From Burkholderiales bacterium (GTDB lineage: Bacteria > Pseudomonadota > Gammaproteobacteria > Burkholderiales > SG8-39): a DNA stretch of 34,154 bases. The notes beneath the pieces are model-generated. The model saw nothing but the letters and a program-made list of their open reading frames with translations. It had not been told where the DNA came from and ran no database searches. Location of the stretch: positions 1 to 34,154 of the forward strand of contig JAOAFL010000063.1 of assembly GCA_026416295.1 (NCBI GenBank). Direction: 5' to 3'. A program made the position numbers and the translations under genes. Below, piece by piece: positions 3,567-17,673 of this stretch (its first letter is position 1; each line of letters starts with the position of its first letter).

Positions 3567-4655
3567 ATGACGCCAGAGACCGCGCTTCGCAGGACACCGC
3601 TCTTTGAGGCGCATCGCGCGCTCGGCGCGCGCATGACCGCGTTCGCGGGCTGGCAGATGCCGCTTCACTACGGCTCTCAGCTCGAGGAACACCGCGCGGT
3701 CCGGACATCCGCAGGCGTGTTCGACATCTCCCACATGTGCGCGGTGGACGCGGAAGGCCGCGAGGCCCGCGCGGCGCTTCGCCGGCTGCTCGCGAACGAC
3801 GTCGCAAAGCTCGCCGCGCCCGGACGCGCGCTCTACGCGTGCCTGCTCGACGAGCGGGGCGGCATGCTCGACGACCTGGTCGTCACCTGGCTGGGCGGTG
3901 AGCGCTACCGGCTCGTCGTCAACGCCGCGACCTGCGAGCGCGACCTCGACTGGTTTCGGAAAAGCGCGCCCGAGGTGGCCTTCGCGGCGCGGCGGGACCT
4001 GGCGATGCTCGCGTTGCAAGGGCCGGCGGCGCGCGAAACGCTGTGGCGCGCGCGGGGCGCCTGGCGGGCCGCGACCGAGGCGCTTACCCGCTTTTCGGCC
4101 GCGGAGCTTTCGGGCGACGTGTTCGTCTCGCGCACCGGCTATACCGGCGAAGACGGCTTCGAGGTCATGCTGCCTGCGCCGCAGGCGGCGGCGCTCTGGA
4201 ACGACCTGGTCGCCGCAGGCGCCGTCCCCTGCGGCCTTGCGGCGCGCGATACGCTGCGGCTCGAAGCGGGAATGATCCTCTACGGTCAGGACGCCGACGA
4301 AACCGTTACCCCGTTCGAGGCGGGCGTCGGCTGGACGGTGGATCTTTCCGATTCCGCCCGCGAGTTCATCGGTCGCCGGGCGCTCGAGGCGAGAAGCGCG
4401 CGCTTCCAGCTCCTCGGCCTGAGGCTCGAAGAACGCGCCGTGCCGAGAAGCGGCATGAACGTTCGCACCGCGCACGGCGCAGGCGAGGTGACGAGCGGGA
4501 CGTTTTCGCCCACGCTCGGGGTGACGATCGCGCTCGCGCGGCTGCCGCTTGCCGCGGCGCCGGGCGACGCCGCCGAGATCGAAGTGCGCGGCCGCTGGCT
4601 TTCCGCGCGCGTCGTCAAACCGCCGTTCGTCCGTCATGGCAAGGAGGTGAGATGA
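3567..4655 (+). CDS. gcvT: Glycine cleavage system T protein (aminomethyltransferase)
   Basis: The tetrahydrofolate-dependent aminomethyltransferase of the glycine cleavage system. It takes the aminomethyl group from lipoyl GcvH and releases ammonia and 5,10-methylene-THF. From the ATG at 3567 the protein is 362 aa, close to the usual 360-365. N-terminal [23 protein letters not shown] and the [11 protein letters not shown] folate-site region are typical. [11 protein letters not shown] and the later L-R-L-E-A-G-M sequence follow. A GTG at 3540 is in frame but would add nine residues and abuts the hairpin, so the ATG is preferred. It is the first gene of the riboswitch-controlled operon. Its stop overlaps the gcvH start by 4 bp (ATGA). 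Confidence 0.97.
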
Positions 4656-5038
4656 ACATTCCGCCTGAGCTGCGCTATACCGCGACCCACGAGTGGGTGC
4701 GCGAGGAGGGGGATCTGCTCGTCGTCGGCATCACCGATCCCGCGCAGGAGATGCTCGGCGACCTCGTCTTCGTCGGCGAAGTCGAGGTCGGACGAAAGCT
4801 CGGCGCCGGGGAAGTCGCCGCGGTGGTCGAGTCCACGAAGGCCGCCGCTGACGTGTATTCGCCGGCTGCGGGCGAGATCGTCGCGTTCAACGAGGAACTC
4901 GCGAAAAACCCCGAGATCGTCAACCGCCGGCCGTACGACGCATGGATCTTCAAGCTGCGGCCGGTGCAGCCGCCGCAGAACCTGCTCGATGCCGACGGCT
5001 ACCGCGTCGCCGTCGAGGCGAAAAAGGAGGCGCCGTGA
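4652..5038 (+). CDS. gcvH: Glycine cleavage system H protein
   Basis: The lipoyl-carrier protein that shuttles the aminomethyl group between GcvP, GcvT and dihydrolipoamide dehydrogenase. It has 128 aa, the normal size. The N-terminal T-A-T-H-E-W-V sequence, the G-I-T-D-P-A-Q strand and the lipoylation site at Lys63 in [11 protein letters not shown] are all present, as is the following P-A-A-G-E-I-V and N-P-E-I-V-N. A near-perfect Shine-Dalgarno (AAGGAGGTGA, 4641-4650) lies inside the end of gcvT, and the start overlaps the gcvT stop. Lipoylation genes and the L protein (lpd) are not in the window, which is common because they are usually shared with other complexes. Confidence 0.97.
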
Positions 5039-7896
5039 GCGAGCTTGCCGCGCTCGAAGCGAGGGACGAGTTCGTCGGCCGCCACATCGGGCCGAGCGAG
5101 GCCGAGGTCCGGGCGATGCTCGCCGCGCTCGGCTGCGATTCGCTTGCGACGCTCCTCGAGCAGGCGCTTCCGCCGGCGATCCGCGCCCGCAGGCCGCTTG
5201 CGCTCCCCGCGGCGCGGCCCGAGCGCGAGGTGCTCGCCGAGCTGCGGCGCCTTGCGGCGAAGAACCGGGTGCTGAAGAGCTTCATCGGCCAGGGCTATTA
5301 CGGCACGTTCACCCCGCCCGTCATCCTGCGAAACGTGCTCGAGAACCCCGCGTGGTACACGGCGTACACGCCGTATCAGGCCGAAATCTCGCAAGGGCGG
5401 CTCGAGGCGCTGCTCGTCTTTCAGACGATGGTGAGCGATCTCACCGGCCTGCCGATCGCGAACGCCTCGCTGCTCGACGAGGCGACCGCCGCCGCCGAGG
5501 CGATGGCGATGGCGCGGCGCGCGAGCCGCTCGCCGAGCCGCACGTTCTTCGTCTCCGAGCGCTGCCATCCGCAGACGATCGCGGTGCTCGCGACGCGCGC
5601 CGAGTGCCAGGGGATCGAGCTGCGCGTGGGCGACGAGCGCGCACCGCCCCCCGACTGCTTCGGCGCGCTGGTGCAGTACCCGGACACCTTGGGCGGCGTC
5701 GTCGATCACCGGCCGCTCGCCGAGGCGCTGCACGCGCACGGGGCGCTTCTCGTCGCGGCGACCGATCTGCTCGCGCTCGTGCTCCTTTCGCCGCCGGGCG
5801 AATGGGGCGCCGACATCGCGGTCGGGTCTGCGCAGCGCTTCGGCGTGCCGATGGGCTACGGCGGCCCGCACGCCGCGTTTCTCGCCTGCCGCGAGGATCT
5901 GGTGCGCCAGCTTCCCGGCCGGCTCGTCGGCGTCTCGCGCGATGCGCAGGGCGCGCCCGCGCTTCGCCTCGCGCTTCAGACGCGCGAGCAGCACATCCGG
6001 CGCGAAAAGGCGACCTCCAACATCTGCACCGCGCAGGTACTCCTTGCAGTGATCGCGGCGATGTACGCGGTCTGGCACGGGCCGCAAGGCCTCGAGCGCA
6101 TCGCGCGGCGCACGCATCGCATGGCGGCGCTCGCCGCGCAAGGGCTCGCACGCCTCGGTTTTGCGGTGTCGCCCGCCGCATTTTTCGACACCATCGTGGC
6201 AGAGACCGGCGCCGCGACCGAGGCGATCCACGCAGCGGCGATCGCGTACGGGATGAACTTCCGGCGTCTCGAAGGAGGGCGGATCGGGCTTTCGTTCGAC
6301 GAGACGACGACGCGCGAGGATGTGGCGCGGCTGCTCTCGGTGTTCGCGCGCGGGGCAGGGCGGCCGCCGGTCGTACCCGAGGCGGACGCCGCGGAGCGGC
6401 TGCCCGAGGGGCTGCGGCGCGCATCGCCCTTCCTTACCCATCCGGTGTTTCATGCGCACCGGTCCGAAACGGCGATGCTGCGGTATCTGCGCCGGCTCGC
6501 CGACCGGGACCTCGCGCTCGATCGCACGATGATCCCGCTCGGCTCCTGCACGATGAAGCTGAACCCGACGGCGGCGATGATCCCGATCACCTGGGAGGGT
6601 TTTGCCGGCATGCATCCGTACGCGCCGGCCGACCAGGCGGCGGGCTACGGCGAGCTGATCGCGGATCTGTGCGCGCAGCTTGCCGAGATCACCGGCATGG
6701 ATGCGGTGAGCGTGCAGCCGAACGCCGGCGCGCAGGGCGAATTCGCCGGGCTGCTCGCGATCCGCGCCTGGCACCGCGCGCGCGGGGAGCCCGAGCGCGA
6801 CCTCTGCCTCATTCCGTCGTCGGCGCACGGCACCAACCCGGCCTCGGCGCGCATGGCCGGCATGAGCGTGGTCGAAGTCGCCTGCGATGCGCACGGCAAC
6901 GTCGATGTGGCCGACCTGCGCGCAAAAGCGGCCGCGCACCGCGAGCGGCTCGCGGCGCTCATGATCACCTATCCGTCCACGCACGGCGTCTTCGAGGAAT
7001 CGATCCGCGAGATCTGCGACCTCGTGCACGCGGCAGGCGGCCAGGTGTACATGGACGGGGCGAACCTCAATGCGCTCGTCGGCCTTGCGCGCCCGGGCGA
7101 ACTGGGCGCCGACGTCTGTCACGTCAACCTTCACAAGACCTTCGCGATCCCGCACGGCGGAGGCGGCCCGGGGGCCGGACCGATCGCGGTAAAGGCCCAC
7201 CTTGCGCCGTATCTTCCCGGCGATCCGCTCGAGGCCGCAGGCGCGGTCGGCCCGGTGTCGGCGGCGAAATACGGCTCGGCGGGGATCCTGCCGATTTCCT
7301 GGGCCTACATCGCGCTGATGGGCGCAGACGGCCTGCGGCGCGCGAGCGAAGCGGCGATTCTCGCGGCGAACTATGTCGCTGCGCGGCTAGCGCCGCACTA
7401 TCCGGTGCTCTACACCGGCCGCGGCGGCCGCGTCGCCCACGAGTGCATCCTCGACCTGCGGCCGCTGCGCGAGACGGCGGGCATTACCGCAGAGGACGTC
7501 GCAAAGCGCCTCGCCGACTACGGGTTTCATGCGCCCACCATGAGCTTTCCGGTCGCCGGCACGCTGATGGTCGAGCCGACCGAGTCCGAGAGCCTCGCCG
7601 AACTCGACCGGTTCATAGACGCGATGATCGCGATCCGCGCCGAGATCCGCGAAATCGAGGAGGGGCGCGCCGACCGCGAGGACAACGTGCTGAAAAACGC
7701 CCCGCACACCGCCGCGATGTGCGCAGCCGACGAGTGGCGCCACCGCTACCGCCGCGCGCAAGCCGCGTTTCCGCTGCCGAGCCTTCGCGCGGCGAAATAC
7801 TGGCCGCCCGTCGGGCGCGTGGACAACGCGTGGGGTGACCGGCACCTCGTTTGCGTCCTGCCGCCGCCCGAGGCGTCCGCGGCGGCCGGCCGTTGA
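5035..7896 (+). CDS. gcvP: Glycine dehydrogenase (decarboxylating), P protein
   Basis: The PLP-dependent glycine decarboxylase of the glycine cleavage system. It is a single 953-aa chain rather than the split GcvPA/GcvPB form. The N-terminal half contains R-H-I-G-P-S, the [15 protein letters not shown] block and [11 protein letters not shown]. The C-terminal half contains the S-C-T-M-K-L-N-P segment, S-A-H-G-T-N-P-A-S and the PLP-binding Lys701 in N-L-H-K-T-F, followed by a Gly-rich loop. The start is taken as the GTG at 5035. It overlaps the gcvH stop (GTGA) and has AAAAAGGAGG just upstream; translation from an earlier ATG would only read through gcvH in another frame. It converges with the M20 gene, 18 bp between stops, with no clear terminator. 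Confidence 0.97.
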
Positions 7897-14291: not shown

Positions 14292-14520
14292 CTCGCGGGA
14301 ATCTCCGAAAGGGGCGGGATCGATCTTGCGCCCGGCGAAAGCCGTCGGGCCAGCGGATTCTAGCAAGCGGCGTCGGCGGGCCCGGCCGCGACTTGCGAAC
14401 GGCCGGCCCGGCGCGAGGGGGCGAACGGAGTGGGAAGCTGCCCACTATCGTTTCGCTCGCTTTTGTGGTTGCTTTCCCACGCCCTGCGGCGTACCGTCGG
14501 CGCAACGAGAGGAGGCGCCC
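14292..14520. promoter_or_regulatory. Divergent intergenic region with promoter-like and inverted-repeat elements
   Basis: This 229-bp gap separates the FadB-type operon from the HTH/methyltransferase-like gene. On the minus strand TAGAAT (14362-14357) is a good -10 box for the FadB operon; no clear -35 is seen. The right half, 14446-14480, is less GC-rich than its surroundings and carries repeated GTGGGAA/TTCCCAC half-sites. A strong Shine-Dalgarno (GAGAGGAGG, about 14507-14515) precedes the GTG start at 14521. No convincing small gene is present. Confidence 0.5.
14430..14480. repeat. GTGGGAA / TTCCCAC inverted repeat, candidate operator
   Basis: GTGGGAA at 14430-14436 is the exact inverse of TTCCCAC at 14474-14480. 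Between them GTGGG (14430-14434) also pairs with CCCAC (14441-14445) around a 6-nt AAGCTG spacer. The cluster lies 41 bp upstream of a protein that itself has an N-terminal helix-turn-helix-like region. The elements could be operator half-sites or alternative hairpins in the leader. Confidence 0.35.
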
Positions 14521-15915
14521 GTGCAGCTCGCGCAGCCGAGTTCGCTGCTCGAAACCATCGCCGAATTCTGCCGACGCAACCGGCTCGCCGAATCCACCTT
14601 CGGGCGGCGGGTGGTGAACGACGGCAAGTTCGTCGCGCGGCTCCGCGACGGCGCGCGCGTGACGCCCGAGACGCTGCAGCGCGTCGCCGCGTATCTGGAG
14701 CGCCACGGCGTCGCGGCGCCGCAGGCGCCGCGCGAGCTGCGTCCGCTCATCCGCGTCGCCGAGCGGCCGGCCGACGCCGGCGCCCCCGAGCCCGCGTCGC
14801 GCCAGTTCCGCTTCTTCGACAACCGCCAGAAGTATCTGCTGTTCGTCAGCACCTGCGGCGAAAAGGAAGTGATCGCGCGCCGCATCGGCATGGAGCTCGG
14901 GCACCTGCGGCCGCGGCCGCCTGCGGTGCGCGTCTTCGACGCCGGCATGGGCGATGCGACCGTGCTGACGCGCGTCATGCGCGAAATGCACCGGCGCTTT
15001 CCGACCATGCCGTTCTACTTCGTCGGCAAGGAGATCAGTCTCGAGGACGTGCGGCTGTCGCTCGACAAGATGGCCGATCGATTCTTCGAGCATCCGGCGA
15101 CGGTGCTCGTCGTCACCAACATGTACTACACCGAGGCGCCGTGGCTTGCGCCGAAGGCGGTCGCCGCCGCCACCTCGCTCGTATGGCACGAGGTGGCGCT
15201 CACCGGCACGACGGCGCACGAGTTCGGCGAGCAGATCGAGGCGCTCGAGCCGTTTCTCGCGCGCCACTGGCAGGCGCGTCACAGCCCGACGAGCGGCAAC
15301 CCGGTCTACGAGCGGCCGGTGGTGCTCGTGCTCTACCGCGAGGATTTCCGCTTCCTGCTGCACGACATCGTCCCGCGCCAGGGGCGGGCGGTCGCCGACT
15401 TCGACCTGGTGATCGCCTCGCAGCCCTACCGCGCGCGCGCCCCGCTCGAGTTCAAGGCGCAGAAGGTGATCGCGCCGCTTGCGCGCGCGCTCGGCCCCGG
15501 CGGGCGGCTGATCGGCATCCACTCGAAGGGCGGCGATCCCGGCCTCGAAATCGTGCGCCGGATCTGGCCCGACGAAAACCCGTTCCGTCACAGCCGCCAC
15601 GAGCTGCTGCGCGCGGTGCGCGCCGAGCTCGGCCGCGAGGCGCGCCGCTACAACTTCAACGCGTATTCGGAAGCGCGCGCGGTGTTTCGCTACGACATGC
15701 ACACGCTGCCCACCGAGATCGCCGCGAGCATCGGCACTTCGACGCTCCTTGCGGCCTGGAACGCGGCGGTGTACGTCGCGCAGATCGACGACGAGCGGCT
15801 CGCGCAGGTGGTCGGCGAGCGCCGCTATCTGGAGGCGACGCGCGAGGTGCTGCAGGCCCACGGCGGGCTGTGGTTCCTCGACGAGTCCTACGTGATATCC
15901 CGCAAGAGGAGCTGA
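14521..15915 (+). CDS. HTH-like domain plus SAM-dependent methyltransferase-like protein, function unknown
   Basis: 464 aa from the GTG at 14521, chosen for the GAGAGGAGG ribosome site and because conservation-like sequence begins there. Residues about 5-65 look like a small helix-turn-helix domain: F-C-R-R-N-R-L-A-E-S-T-F-G-R-R, then a conserved-looking V-N-D-G-K-F-V-A-R-L-R-D-G. After a linker, residues 138-146 read V-F-D-A-G-M-G-D-A, a class I methyltransferase motif I for S-adenosylmethionine. F-D-L-V-I-A-S-Q and later G-P-G-G-R-L-I-G-I-H fit motifs further along the fold. A mid-region M-Y-Y-T-E-A-P and a long C-terminal part are not familiar. Only 3 bp separate it from the MetF-like gene, so the two are cotranscribed. 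I cannot name a substrate; it may be a methyltransferase, a regulator, or both. Confidence 0.75.
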   Translation: MQLAQPSSLLETIAEFCRRNRLAESTFGRRVVNDGKFVARLRDGARVTPETLQRVAAYLERHGVAAPQAPRELRPLIRVAERPADAGAPEPASRQFRFFDNRQKYLLFVSTCGEKEVIARRIGMELGHLRPRPPAVRVFDAGMGDATVLTRVMREMHRRFPTMPFYFVGKEISLEDVRLSLDKMADRFFEHPATVLVVTNMYYTEAPWLAPKAVAAATSLVWHEVALTGTTAHEFGEQIEALEPFLARHWQARHSPTSGNPVYERPVVLVLYREDFRFLLHDIVPRQGRAVADFDLVIASQPYRARAPLEFKAQKVIAPLARALGPGGRLIGIHSKGGDPGLEIVRRIWPDENPFRHSRHELLRAVRAELGREARRYNFNAYSEARAVFRYDMHTLPTEIAASIGTSTLLAAWNAAVYVAQIDDERLAQVVGERRYLEATREVLQAHGGLWFLDESYVISRKRS

Positions 15916-15918
15916 ACG

Positions 15919-16809
15919 ATGACGGTCGCCGTGCGCCCGCAGGCGGGCGAACTGGAGCGCATCGCCGCGGAACTGGTCGCCTGCGGCTCGCTCGAGATGA
16001 ACGCCGACCGCGCGGCCGATGCGCGCGCGATCGCCGCCGAGCTTCCGGTCGGCACGCGCGTCTACGTCAACCATCTGCCGCGGCACTCGCTCGAGCAGTC
16101 GCTCGATGCGCTCGTCGCGCTGCGCGAGGCGGGCCTCGAGCCGGTGCCGCACGTCGCCGCGCGGCGCGTGCCTTCGCGCAAGGCGCTGCGCGATTTCCTC
16201 GCGCGCGCGGTGCGCGAGGCGGGGGTGGCGAAGGTGCTCGCGATCGGCGGCGACCTGCGCGCGCCCGACGGCCCGTACGCCGACGCCGGCGCGATGCTCG
16301 CCGACGGCGTGCTCGCCGACTGCGGGATCCGAGAGGTCGGGCTTCCCGGCTACCCGGAGGGACATCCCGCGATCCCGCGCCCGGTGCTCGCACGGCTGCT
16401 CGCCGATCGGCTCGGCATCCTGCGCGCGCAGGGCCTCGGCGCACACATCCTCACCCAGTTCTCGTTCGCGCCGGTGCGCGTCGTCGAATACCTCTCGGAG
16501 CTTGCGCGCACCGCGCCGGGCGTGCCGGTCTACGTCGGCCTCGCCGGCCCGACCGACCCGGTGCGGCTCATGCGCTTTGCCCAGCGCTGCGGCGTGAGCG
16601 CGTCGCTGCGGGCGCTGCGCGCGCAGGGCATCGGGGCGGTGCGGCTCGTCACCCACACCGATCCGATGGAGCAACTCGTCGCGCTCGCGCGCCACTGCGC
16701 CGGCGCCGCCGAGTGCAACGCGGTGGGCGTGCACCTCTACAGCTTCGGCGGGGCGGCCGAAACCGCCCGCTGGATGAACCGCGTCATCACCGTCGCGCGC
16801 GGCGGCTGA
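15919..16809 (+). CDS. Divergent methylenetetrahydrofolate reductase (MetF-like) protein
   Basis: A 296-aa protein with the outline of a MetF-type TIM barrel. V-L-A-I-G-G-D-L matches the barrel strand that normally reads A-L-R-G-D. G-Y-P-E-G-H-P matches the Y-P-E-x-H-P signature, T-Q-F-S-F matches the T-Q-F-F-F strand, and the C-terminal H-L-Y-S-F-G matches H-F-Y-T-L. The N-terminal F-E-F-F-P-P signature of standard MetF is replaced by S-L-E-M-N-A, keeping only the Glu. The family reduces 5,10-methylene-THF to 5-methyl-THF with a flavin. This copy is diverged enough that another folate-linked role is possible. The start follows AGAGGAG, 3 bp after the methyltransferase-like gene, which implies a joint function. 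Confidence 0.8.
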   Translation: MTVAVRPQAGELERIAAELVACGSLEMNADRAADARAIAAELPVGTRVYVNHLPRHSLEQSLDALVALREAGLEPVPHVAARRVPSRKALRDFLARAVREAGVAKVLAIGGDLRAPDGPYADAGAMLADGVLADCGIREVGLPGYPEGHPAIPRPVLARLLADRLGILRAQGLGAHILTQFSFAPVRVVEYLSELARTAPGVPVYVGLAGPTDPVRLMRFAQRCGVSASLRALRAQGIGAVRLVTHTDPMEQLVALARHCAGAAECNAVGVHLYSFGGAAETARWMNRVITVARGG

Positions 16810-16836: not shown

Positions 16837-17673
16837 GTGGACCTGCCGCTTCCGGTTCTCCTTGCGGTGCTCGGCGCGGCCGCGGCGCACGCGGCCTGGA
16901 ACGCGCTGCTCAAGTCCGGCACCGACCCGCTGCTCGACGCGGCGCTCCTTGCGCTCGCGGCAAGTGCGCTCGCCGCGCCGGCGCTCGCGCTGGTCGAGCC
17001 GCCGCGGCCGGAGGCCTGGCCGAACCTCCTCGCCTCGGCGTCGATTCACGTCGGCTACTACGCGACGCTCTCTTTCGCCTATCGCGCGGGCGATCTCGCG
17101 CACGCGTACCCGATCATGCGCGGCACCGCGCCGCTCTTCGTCGCGTTCTTTTCCGCGGCGGCGTTCGGCGAGACGCTCGCGCCGGCCGCCTGGAGCGGCA
17201 TCGCGCTCATCTGCGCCGGGGTGCTCTCGCTCGGGCTCTGCGGCGGCGGCGCGAACCGGCGCGCAAGCGCCTGGGCGCTCGCCAACGCCGCGATCATCGC
17301 GGCCTACACCCTCGTCGACGGCGCCGGCGTTCGTGCCGCCGGCGGCGCAGAACGCTACGTCGTCTGGCAGCTCTTTTTGATGGGGCTGCCGTTCGGCCTG
17401 GCGGTGCTCGCGCTGCGCGGGCGGGCGCTCGCGCGCCATGCGGCGCGCTACTGGCCGCGGGCGCTCGCCGGCGCCGCGCTCTCGGGCGCGGCCTACGGGG
17501 TTTCGCTCTGGGCGATGACGCGCGCGCCGGTGGCGGTGATCGCGGCGCTGCGCGAAACCTCGGTGATCTTCGGGGCGTTGCTCGGCGCCTGGCTCCTCGG
17601 CGAGGGGCGGCTGCGGGCGCGGCTCGCCAGCGCGGTCGCCGTCTTCGCCGGCCTGGTCGCGTTGAGGCTCTGA
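16837..17673 (+). CDS. EamA family (DMT superfamily) transporter
   Basis: A 278-aa polytopic inner-membrane protein with about ten hydrophobic segments, arranged as two EamA repeats. The first repeat includes A-H-A-A-W-N-A-L-L-K-S near residue 20 and A-Y-P-I-M-R-G-T-A-P-L, followed by F-G-E-T-L. The second ends L-R-E-T-S-V-I-F-G-A and L-G-E-G-R-L, the repeated family motif. DMT proteins export or import small metabolites such as amino acids and nucleotides; the cargo is not known here. The start is a GTG at 16837. A TAGCAT -10-like box at 16822-16827 sits so close that a transcript from it would be almost leaderless. Confidence 0.92.
   Translation: MDLPLPVLLAVLGAAAAHAAWNALLKSGTDPLLDAALLALAASALAAPALALVEPPRPEAWPNLLASASIHVGYYATLSFAYRAGDLAHAYPIMRGTAPLFVAFFSAAAFGETLAPAAWSGIALICAGVLSLGLCGGGANRRASAWALANAAIIAAYTLVDGAGVRAAGGAERYVVWQLFLMGLPFGLAVLALRGRALARHAARYWPRALAGAALSGAAYGVSLWAMTRAPVAVIAALRETSVIFGALLGAWLLGEGRLRARLASAVAVFAGLVALRL

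Follow-up and report, generated by a model that had tools for sequence, protein, structure and literature searches.

Within a 34,154-nucleotide stretch from a Burkholderiales bacterium (contig JAOAFL010000063.1 of assembly GCA_026416295.1, positions 1 to 34,154; hereafter the window), two adjacent genes encode a protein that joins a helix-turn-helix (HTH)-like domain to a class I S-adenosylmethionine (SAM)-dependent methyltransferase fold (gene 1), and a methylenetetrahydrofolate reductase (MTHFR; gene 2). The unusual half of the pair is gene 1, which belongs to a widespread but unrecognized family tied to MTHFRs and to the SAM cycle, and predicted to be self-regulated in one clade. With slightly less than even confidence, we propose that the pair constitutes a self-regulated methyl-disposal shunt from the SAM cycle to the folate pool, in which gene 1 would transfer a methyl group from SAM to tetrahydrofolate (THF) and gene 2 would oxidize the product. 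A more tentative proposal is that gene 1 represents an undescribed class of SAM:tetrahydrofolate N5-methyltransferases that may connect the SAM cycle with the folate-linked oxidation of methyl groups in many alpha- and betaproteobacteria, streamlined genomes of 1.2-1.6 Mb included, the enzyme of one clade possibly being its own DNA-binding regulator as well. An earlier note on this DNA, made from the sequence alone, had described two genes 3 bp apart and suggested a dedicated methyl-group or one-carbon unit; both open reading frames were found as described, with the gap at 15916-15918, and the conserved pairing, the two folds and the SAM-cycle and folate neighbours argue for such a unit. The source genome is a 2.87 Mb bin, 94% complete, and the closest named relatives of the window belong to Betaproteobacteria/Burkholderiales.

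A scan of 84,980 species genomes for gene 1 yielded 466 confirmed related stretches, the best 80 of which underlie the count of gene 2 neighbours; among these, gene 1 identity ranges from 62 to 83% across alpha-, beta- and gammaproteobacteria. In 73 of these 80 loci gene 1 is followed by gene 2, mostly overlapping it or at less than 100 bases, and in two of the remaining seven the contig ends just after gene 1, so that the pair, for which the earlier note had called for a survey of neighbour conservation, is indeed conserved. In a panel of 61 relatives (24 with gene 1 and 37 without it), gene 2 is present in 20 of the 24 carriers, and the other four (G018, G021, G023 and G033) all carry a different MTHFR subfamily, here M203, located directly behind gene 1 in G018. 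Either gene 2 or M203 is found in 24/24 carriers vs 3/37 non-carriers (p 4.9e-14), and in a second panel of 386 evenly drawn alphaproteobacterial genomes gene 1 is present in 30, M203 in 48 and both in 20, with M203 in 28 of the 356 genomes lacking gene 1 (p 1.7e-13); both p-values overstate independence, as the genomes share kinship. The three exceptions among the non-carriers all have gene 2, two of them (G001 and G012) with an assembled neighbourhood from which gene 1 is missing, and the third (G028) with gene 2 near a contig end. The dependence looks one-sided, gene 1 requiring an MTHFR and the MTHFR not requiring gene 1.

In alphaproteobacteria, M203 adjoins gene 1 and either shares an operon with it or is convergent or divergent to it (L220, L222-L228 and L230). 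HTH presence and partner type were scored over 128 gene 1 homologues on a midpoint-rooted tree, where the partner type requires two changes and M203 reappears (L203) within the gene 2 clade. The strongest indication that gene 1 acts on something that an MTHFR handles is this occupation of one position by two MTHFR subfamilies. Chance adjacency was discarded, since 99 of 120 testable loci have an MTHFR at 6 kb or less, compared to <1% of random genes by our own estimate, which assumes one to two MTHFRs per 3-4 Mb genome; the locus sets behind these adjacency counts overlap in part. Two atypical arrangements were also recorded: in G012 (L238:5490-6377), gene 2 starts with MEAIAEQGSTL, a sequence with which gene 1 begins in relatives, and this looks like an in-frame excision of gene 1, by real loss or as an assembly artefact; and at L102:7455-9500, a single 681-aa frame with an arginine-rich joint spans gene 2 and a MetE-like gene, either a fusion or a read-through artefact.

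Gene 1 had no credible match in Pfam or NCBIfam, a sequence profile search against the PDB gave none at E 1, and a search for it on plasmids found no match; it constitutes a family that these collections do not recognize and that is present in hundreds of genomes. In its AlphaFold 2 (AF2) model (predicted local distance difference test score, pLDDT, 86), residues 9-61 form a four-helix HTH-like domain, which a low-confidence linker joins to the class I methyltransferase fold of residues 94-464. By structure comparison of this model, the closest folds are those of human histamine N-methyltransferase (263 residues aligned, Z 18.1), caffeine/SABATH-type enzymes and a mycobacterial fatty acid O-methyltransferase; all 50 matches listed are methyltransferases, and the fold is that of the seven-strand SAM methyltransferases. 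Gene 1 aligns with SAM-dependent small-molecule methyltransferases, and not with an enzyme lacking SAM-binding geometry, as the earlier note had allowed for.

The motif VFDAGMGD corresponds to gene 1 residues 138-145, and residue invariance was judged over 56 diverse homologue rows (Table 1). E171 occupies the position expected for the ribose-binding acid of class I methyltransferases. In the SQPY segment, P302 is kept in at least 96% of the 56 rows, and position 303 is Y, F or W in the rows shown. Motif IV of N-methyltransferases reads (D/N/S)-(P/I)-P-(Y/F/W); the SQP(Y/F/W) of gene 1 sits in its place, but with Gln instead of Pro or Ile at the second position, and fits a predicted N-methylation. 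Such conserved residues point to an enzyme rather than to a fold in decay.

The best match of gene 2 among all PDB sequences is the MTHFR of Sphingobium SYK-6 (7xg9/7xlf; phmmer E 1.2e-42, the next MTHFR at 4e-7), and the same preference was obtained with a gene 2 profile (2e-86 vs 4e-16). Its AF2 model (pLDDT 92) is a TIM barrel with a template modelling (TM) score of 0.83-0.85 to 7xg9 and ~0.67 to E. coli MetF. A canonical MetF was discarded for gene 2 by its scores (PF02219, 16.3 bits for a cut-off of 24; TIGR00676, 21.1 for 293.7) and by structure as well, being farther than the SYK-6 MTHFR. Of the earlier description of gene 2 as a divergent MetF-like protein, the MTHFR fold stands, whereas the odd MetF gives way to a place with the oxidative SYK-6 MTHFR. 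The motifs quoted there (VFDAGMGD, SLEMNA, YPEGHP and TQF) are all present, with conservation far beyond chance; however, SLE, which is also present in the SYK-6 MTHFR and kept through the subfamily, is not a degenerate FEFFPP. S24, E26 and D112 are each kept in at least 90% of 46 gene 2 homologues, and Q180 is invariant. By position, the Glu of SLE presumably corresponds to Glu28, the catalytic residue of the E. coli MTHFR. A search of the genome bin with PF02219 gave no canonical MetF, the bin being incomplete.

The SYK-6 MTHFR is encoded in a ligM-metF-ligH operon (PMC6888825) and has been reported to run backwards, oxidizing 5-methyl-THF (5-CH3-THF) to 5,10-methylene-THF (PMC12585457); an MTHFR subfamily favouring the oxidative direction has also been described (PMC13001107). 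Gene 2, the ordinary half of the pair, is by sequence and model a new member of the SYK-6-type MTHFRs, with a predicted oxidative activity.

The four helices of the HTH-like domain were predicted with high confidence by AF2, and the domain had no Pfam match or meaningful PDB profile match. It is present in 106 of the 128 gene 1 homologues and absent in 22, a distribution requiring two changes on the tree, in which the HTH-less forms lie on deeper branches as drawn with the midpoint root. These forms retain the core and the MTHFR partner; judging from the homologues, the domain is an add-on, dispensable for the gene 1 family.

Two inverted repeats lie in the gene 1 promoter, and the pattern GTGGN7CCCAC has three matches in the window (both strands), all at these two operators, with 0.14 expected. 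In the 56-row set, 38 promoters precede genes with the HTH-like domain and 18 precede HTH-less genes. Half-sites number 4.18 per 200 bp before the former (shuffled 1.44, standard deviation 0.16) vs 1.06 before the latter (shuffled 1.12), and at least three half-sites occur in 36/38 vs 2/18 promoters, respectively. The exact layout of the sites varies by clade, and full sites are seldom found elsewhere than in the gene 1 promoter (0.008 per kb in the fetched loci). An operator that tracks the presence of the domain and is rare elsewhere is the pattern expected under local autoregulation by the HTH-like domain, and gene 1 is likely to be autoregulated in this manner. The suggestion of self-regulation in the earlier note thus gained support from the repeated operator; however, the domain is dispensable for the family. 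A search of Rfam for a riboswitch at the gene 1 promoter gave nothing above threshold. One genome (G247) carries two gene 1 copies, one with the HTH-like domain and no half-sites, and an HTH-less one in a metK-ahcY-gene2-purU operon with an operator-like site (L166, L167), a pattern that would suit regulation in trans of one copy by the other.

Table 1. Positions in the window of the two genes and of their domains, motifs and operators.
Feature	Positions	Strand	Description
Gene 1	14521-15915	+	HTH + class I SAM-methyltransferase-fold protein, 464 aa; GTG start, TGA stop
Gene 2	15919-16809	+	SYK-6-type MTHFR, 296 aa; ATG start, TGA stop
Operator 1	14430..14445	+	Inverted repeat GTGGG-N6-CCCAC in gene 1 promoter; conserved in 14 aligned relatives
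Operator 2	14465..14480	+	GTGG-N7-CCCAC, 35 bp downstream of operator 1; conserved TTGTGGTTG..TTCCCAC block
HTH-like domain	14545..14703	+	Gene 1 residues 9-61, four helices (AF2 secondary structure); AESTFGRR-VNDGK block nearly invariant
Motif I, DAGMGD	14938..14955	+	Gene 1 residues 140-145, SAM binding; D140, G142, G144, D145 invariant in 56 rows
K170-E171	15028..15033	+	End of strand beta 2; both invariant in 56 rows
Motif IV-like SQPY	15418..15429	+	Gene 1 residues 300-303, end of strand beta 4; S300, Q301 invariant
SLEMNA strand	15988..16005	+	Gene 2 residues 24-29; S24, E26 kept in subfamily
YPEGHP	16351..16368	+	Gene 2 residues 145-150; P146 invariant
TQF	16453..16461	+	Gene 2 residues 179-181; Q180, F181 invariant

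The genes surrounding gene 1 share a theme, namely the flow of methyl groups via methionine and SAM together with a folate outlet. Operons with the order gene1-metK-ahcY-gene2-purU (L167; metK, ahcY and purU confirmed by NCBIfam) and gene1-M203-folE (L203; folE named by NCBIfam) were found, as well as the order MetE-like-gene1-metK-ahcY (L140 and L164), preceded by an ABC transporter in a genus that is Bradyrhizobium-like by its genome size of 6-9 Mb. The MetE-like neighbours, which occur in the fetched flanks of 40/94 loci, lack the folate-binding half (PF01717 only; family NF005085). Contexts vary, with aromatic, phosphonate and DddP-like genes; in Rhizobiales, LigM and protocatechuate genes lie near gene 1. 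In the low-GC loci L233-L236 the genes were read from long open reading frames; two of these (L235 and L236), distant gene 1 homologues from 1.4 Mb genomes, are followed by a DddP-like gene, and L235 also has a homocysteine S-methyltransferase gene in divergent orientation, with metK ~5 kb off.

Under the proposed mechanism, gene 1 would bind SAM and methylate the N5 of THF, producing S-adenosylhomocysteine (SAH) and 5-methyl-THF, which gene 2 would then oxidize to 5,10-methylene-THF, so that methyl groups entering as methionine or SAM could become usable or oxidizable one-carbon units. Transfer from SAM to THF should be favourable because the sulfonium methyl is more reactive than an N5-methyl. 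The carbon might leave via a putative FolD and Fhs in the genome of the window, where Fhs was found (G000:C132), and, for certain other lineages, via PurU. The HTH-like domain, in the window's own lineage, probably binds the paired GTGGG/CCCAC sites of its own promoter, by which the enzyme would set its own level, with SAM, SAH or a folate as the plausible signal. The earlier note had considered the substrate beyond naming; THF can now be proposed.

Several points weigh against this proposal. THF as the acceptor of gene 1 is what we infer, and no SAM:THF methyltransferase was found in the literature searched, which covered few subscription journals. For about 21 of the 120 testable loci, the Bradyrhizobium-like metK-ahcY clusters among them, no MTHFR lies within 6 kb, and M203 is closest to the MTHFR domain of a methionine-synthesis enzyme, so that an oxidative direction is not a given for this subfamily. 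Furthermore, LigM, another possible source of 5-CH3-THF, lies beside the pair in some Rhizobiales; it was found in 2 of the 24 gene 1-carrying relatives and not in the genome of the window, where a LigM-dependent role was accordingly ruled out. PurU was found in none of the 24 carriers and in 15 of the 37 other relatives, and was discarded as the terminal step in the family of the window, Fhs being present instead.

Because the acceptor is inferred, the most serious alternative, although an unlikely one, is that gene 1 uses SAM to N-methylate a different small molecule, and that the MTHFR, MetE-like, MetK and AhcY proteins form an activated-methyl-cycle cassette which provides and regenerates SAM for this reaction, with a reductive MTHFR. 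Every gene of such a cassette suits a SAM regeneration cycle, gene 1 shares its fold with histamine N-methyltransferase and caffeine-type enzymes, and its contexts vary, with aromatic, phosphonate and DddP-like genes. However, MetE-like partners with PF01717 only are unlikely to accept a methyl group from an MTHFR for want of the folate-binding half, gene 2 is nearest to an oxidative MTHFR, the PurU and LigM neighbours are catabolic, and no common export or product gene was seen in the loci. It is quite improbable that gene 1 is instead a non-catalytic, methyltransferase-derived sensor of SAM/SAH that binds the MTHFR and controls it allosterically: its ties to two MTHFR subfamilies would suit this role, and eukaryotic MTHFR has its own SAM-responsive regulatory domain (PMC13001107), but the catalytic-site residues, among them S300-Q301 where beta 4 meets the acceptor side, are invariant, and some gene 1 copies accompany metK and ahcY with no adjacent MTHFR. 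Least probable is a role chiefly as a transcription regulator of SAM-cycle and one-carbon genes with the methyltransferase domain as SAM sensor, which the HTH-like domain, the repeated operator and neighbours typical of SAM-cycle regulator targets (metK, ahcY, MTHFR; PMC4239095) would favour, but which the 22 HTH-less homologues, with core and partner kept and promoters not enriched in half-sites, weigh against (they make a pure DNA-binding regulator unlikely as well), as does the rarity of full sites elsewhere, no wider regulon being visible in the fetched loci.

Among known systems, the pair seems to be a variant of the LigM-MTHFR module of Sphingobium lignivorans SYK-6, with a SAM methyltransferase in place of the demethylase (PMC6888825, PMC12585457). 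In both, a gene 2-like MTHFR is encoded next to its partner, which in SYK-6 makes the 5-CH3-THF to be oxidized and here is predicted to do so, and Fhs (LigH), downstream in the SYK-6 pathway, is also present in the genome of the window; in contrast, the SYK-6 partner is the THF-dependent demethylase LigM, SYK-6 lacks the glycine cleavage genes that the genome of the window has, and only here is self-regulation by an HTH-like domain on the enzyme predicted. The small-molecule class I methyltransferases (histamine N-methyltransferase, SABATH/caffeine enzymes and mycobacterial fatty acid O-methyltransferase) share with gene 1 the fold over residues 94-464 and the SAM motifs; gene 1 differs by its ~10% identity, the lack of a profile match, the motif IV-like SQPY, the HTH-like domain in one clade and its genomic ties to MTHFRs. 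In the MetF2-FolD-PurU pathway of chloromethane degraders and the THF-linked methyl oxidation of SAR11 (PMC3160333), an MTHFR homologue likewise oxidizes 5-CH3-THF and the carbon exits as formate, but the methyl group reaches THF by corrinoid or GcvT-like enzymes, whereas a SAM methyltransferase is proposed here. ArsRM-type fusions (PMC10190100) likewise unite a DNA-binding part, an HTH regulator, with a SAM methyltransferase in a single chain, but ArsRM acts on arsenite, while the links of gene 1 are to SAM and folate metabolism and its HTH-less homologues are common.

If the proposed shunt exists, it could allow the burning or reuse of methyl groups that folate-independent MetE-like or betaine-homocysteine-type enzymes have placed on methionine. 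The methyl groups of betaine, dimethylsulfoniopropionate and other methylated compounds can enter bacteria by homocysteine methylation, and their later oxidation from methionine or SAM has no route in the models consulted; for SAR11, methionine is the only destination given for the first methyl of glycine betaine (PMC3160333). A SAM-to-folate methyltransferase acting with an oxidative MTHFR would close this gap in methyl oxidation, give a function to a family outside Pfam and NCBIfam, and define a self-regulated two-gene module that turns methyl groups into one-carbon units.

Other observations concern the relatives and the flanks of the pair. Folate-independent MetE-like genes (NF005085) are strongly multiplied among the 61 relatives, with up to 11 matches in G033. 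The locus L171:9780-15210 combines an HTH-less gene 1 homologue with a second, divergent metK (TIGR01034, 322 bits) at a distance of ~4 kb. In the genus g208 (L169 and L170), HTH-less homologues (53%) have no one-carbon neighbours and lie beside a gene that we take, from sequence recognition, to be dioxygenase-like; this branch perhaps has another role. In the window, a glycine cleavage operon (GcvT, GcvH and GcvP by Pfam; 3567-7896, + strand) lies ~6.6 kb upstream of gene 1 and feeds the same methylene-THF pool. Behind gene 2 (16837-17673, + strand) is an EamA-type transporter matching the phosphonate utilization-associated TIGR03340 at 190 bits, below the cut-off of 288, and a comparable transporter is found near the gene 1 homologue of L233, among PhnW, PhnA and phosphonoacetaldehyde dehydrogenase phosphonate genes.

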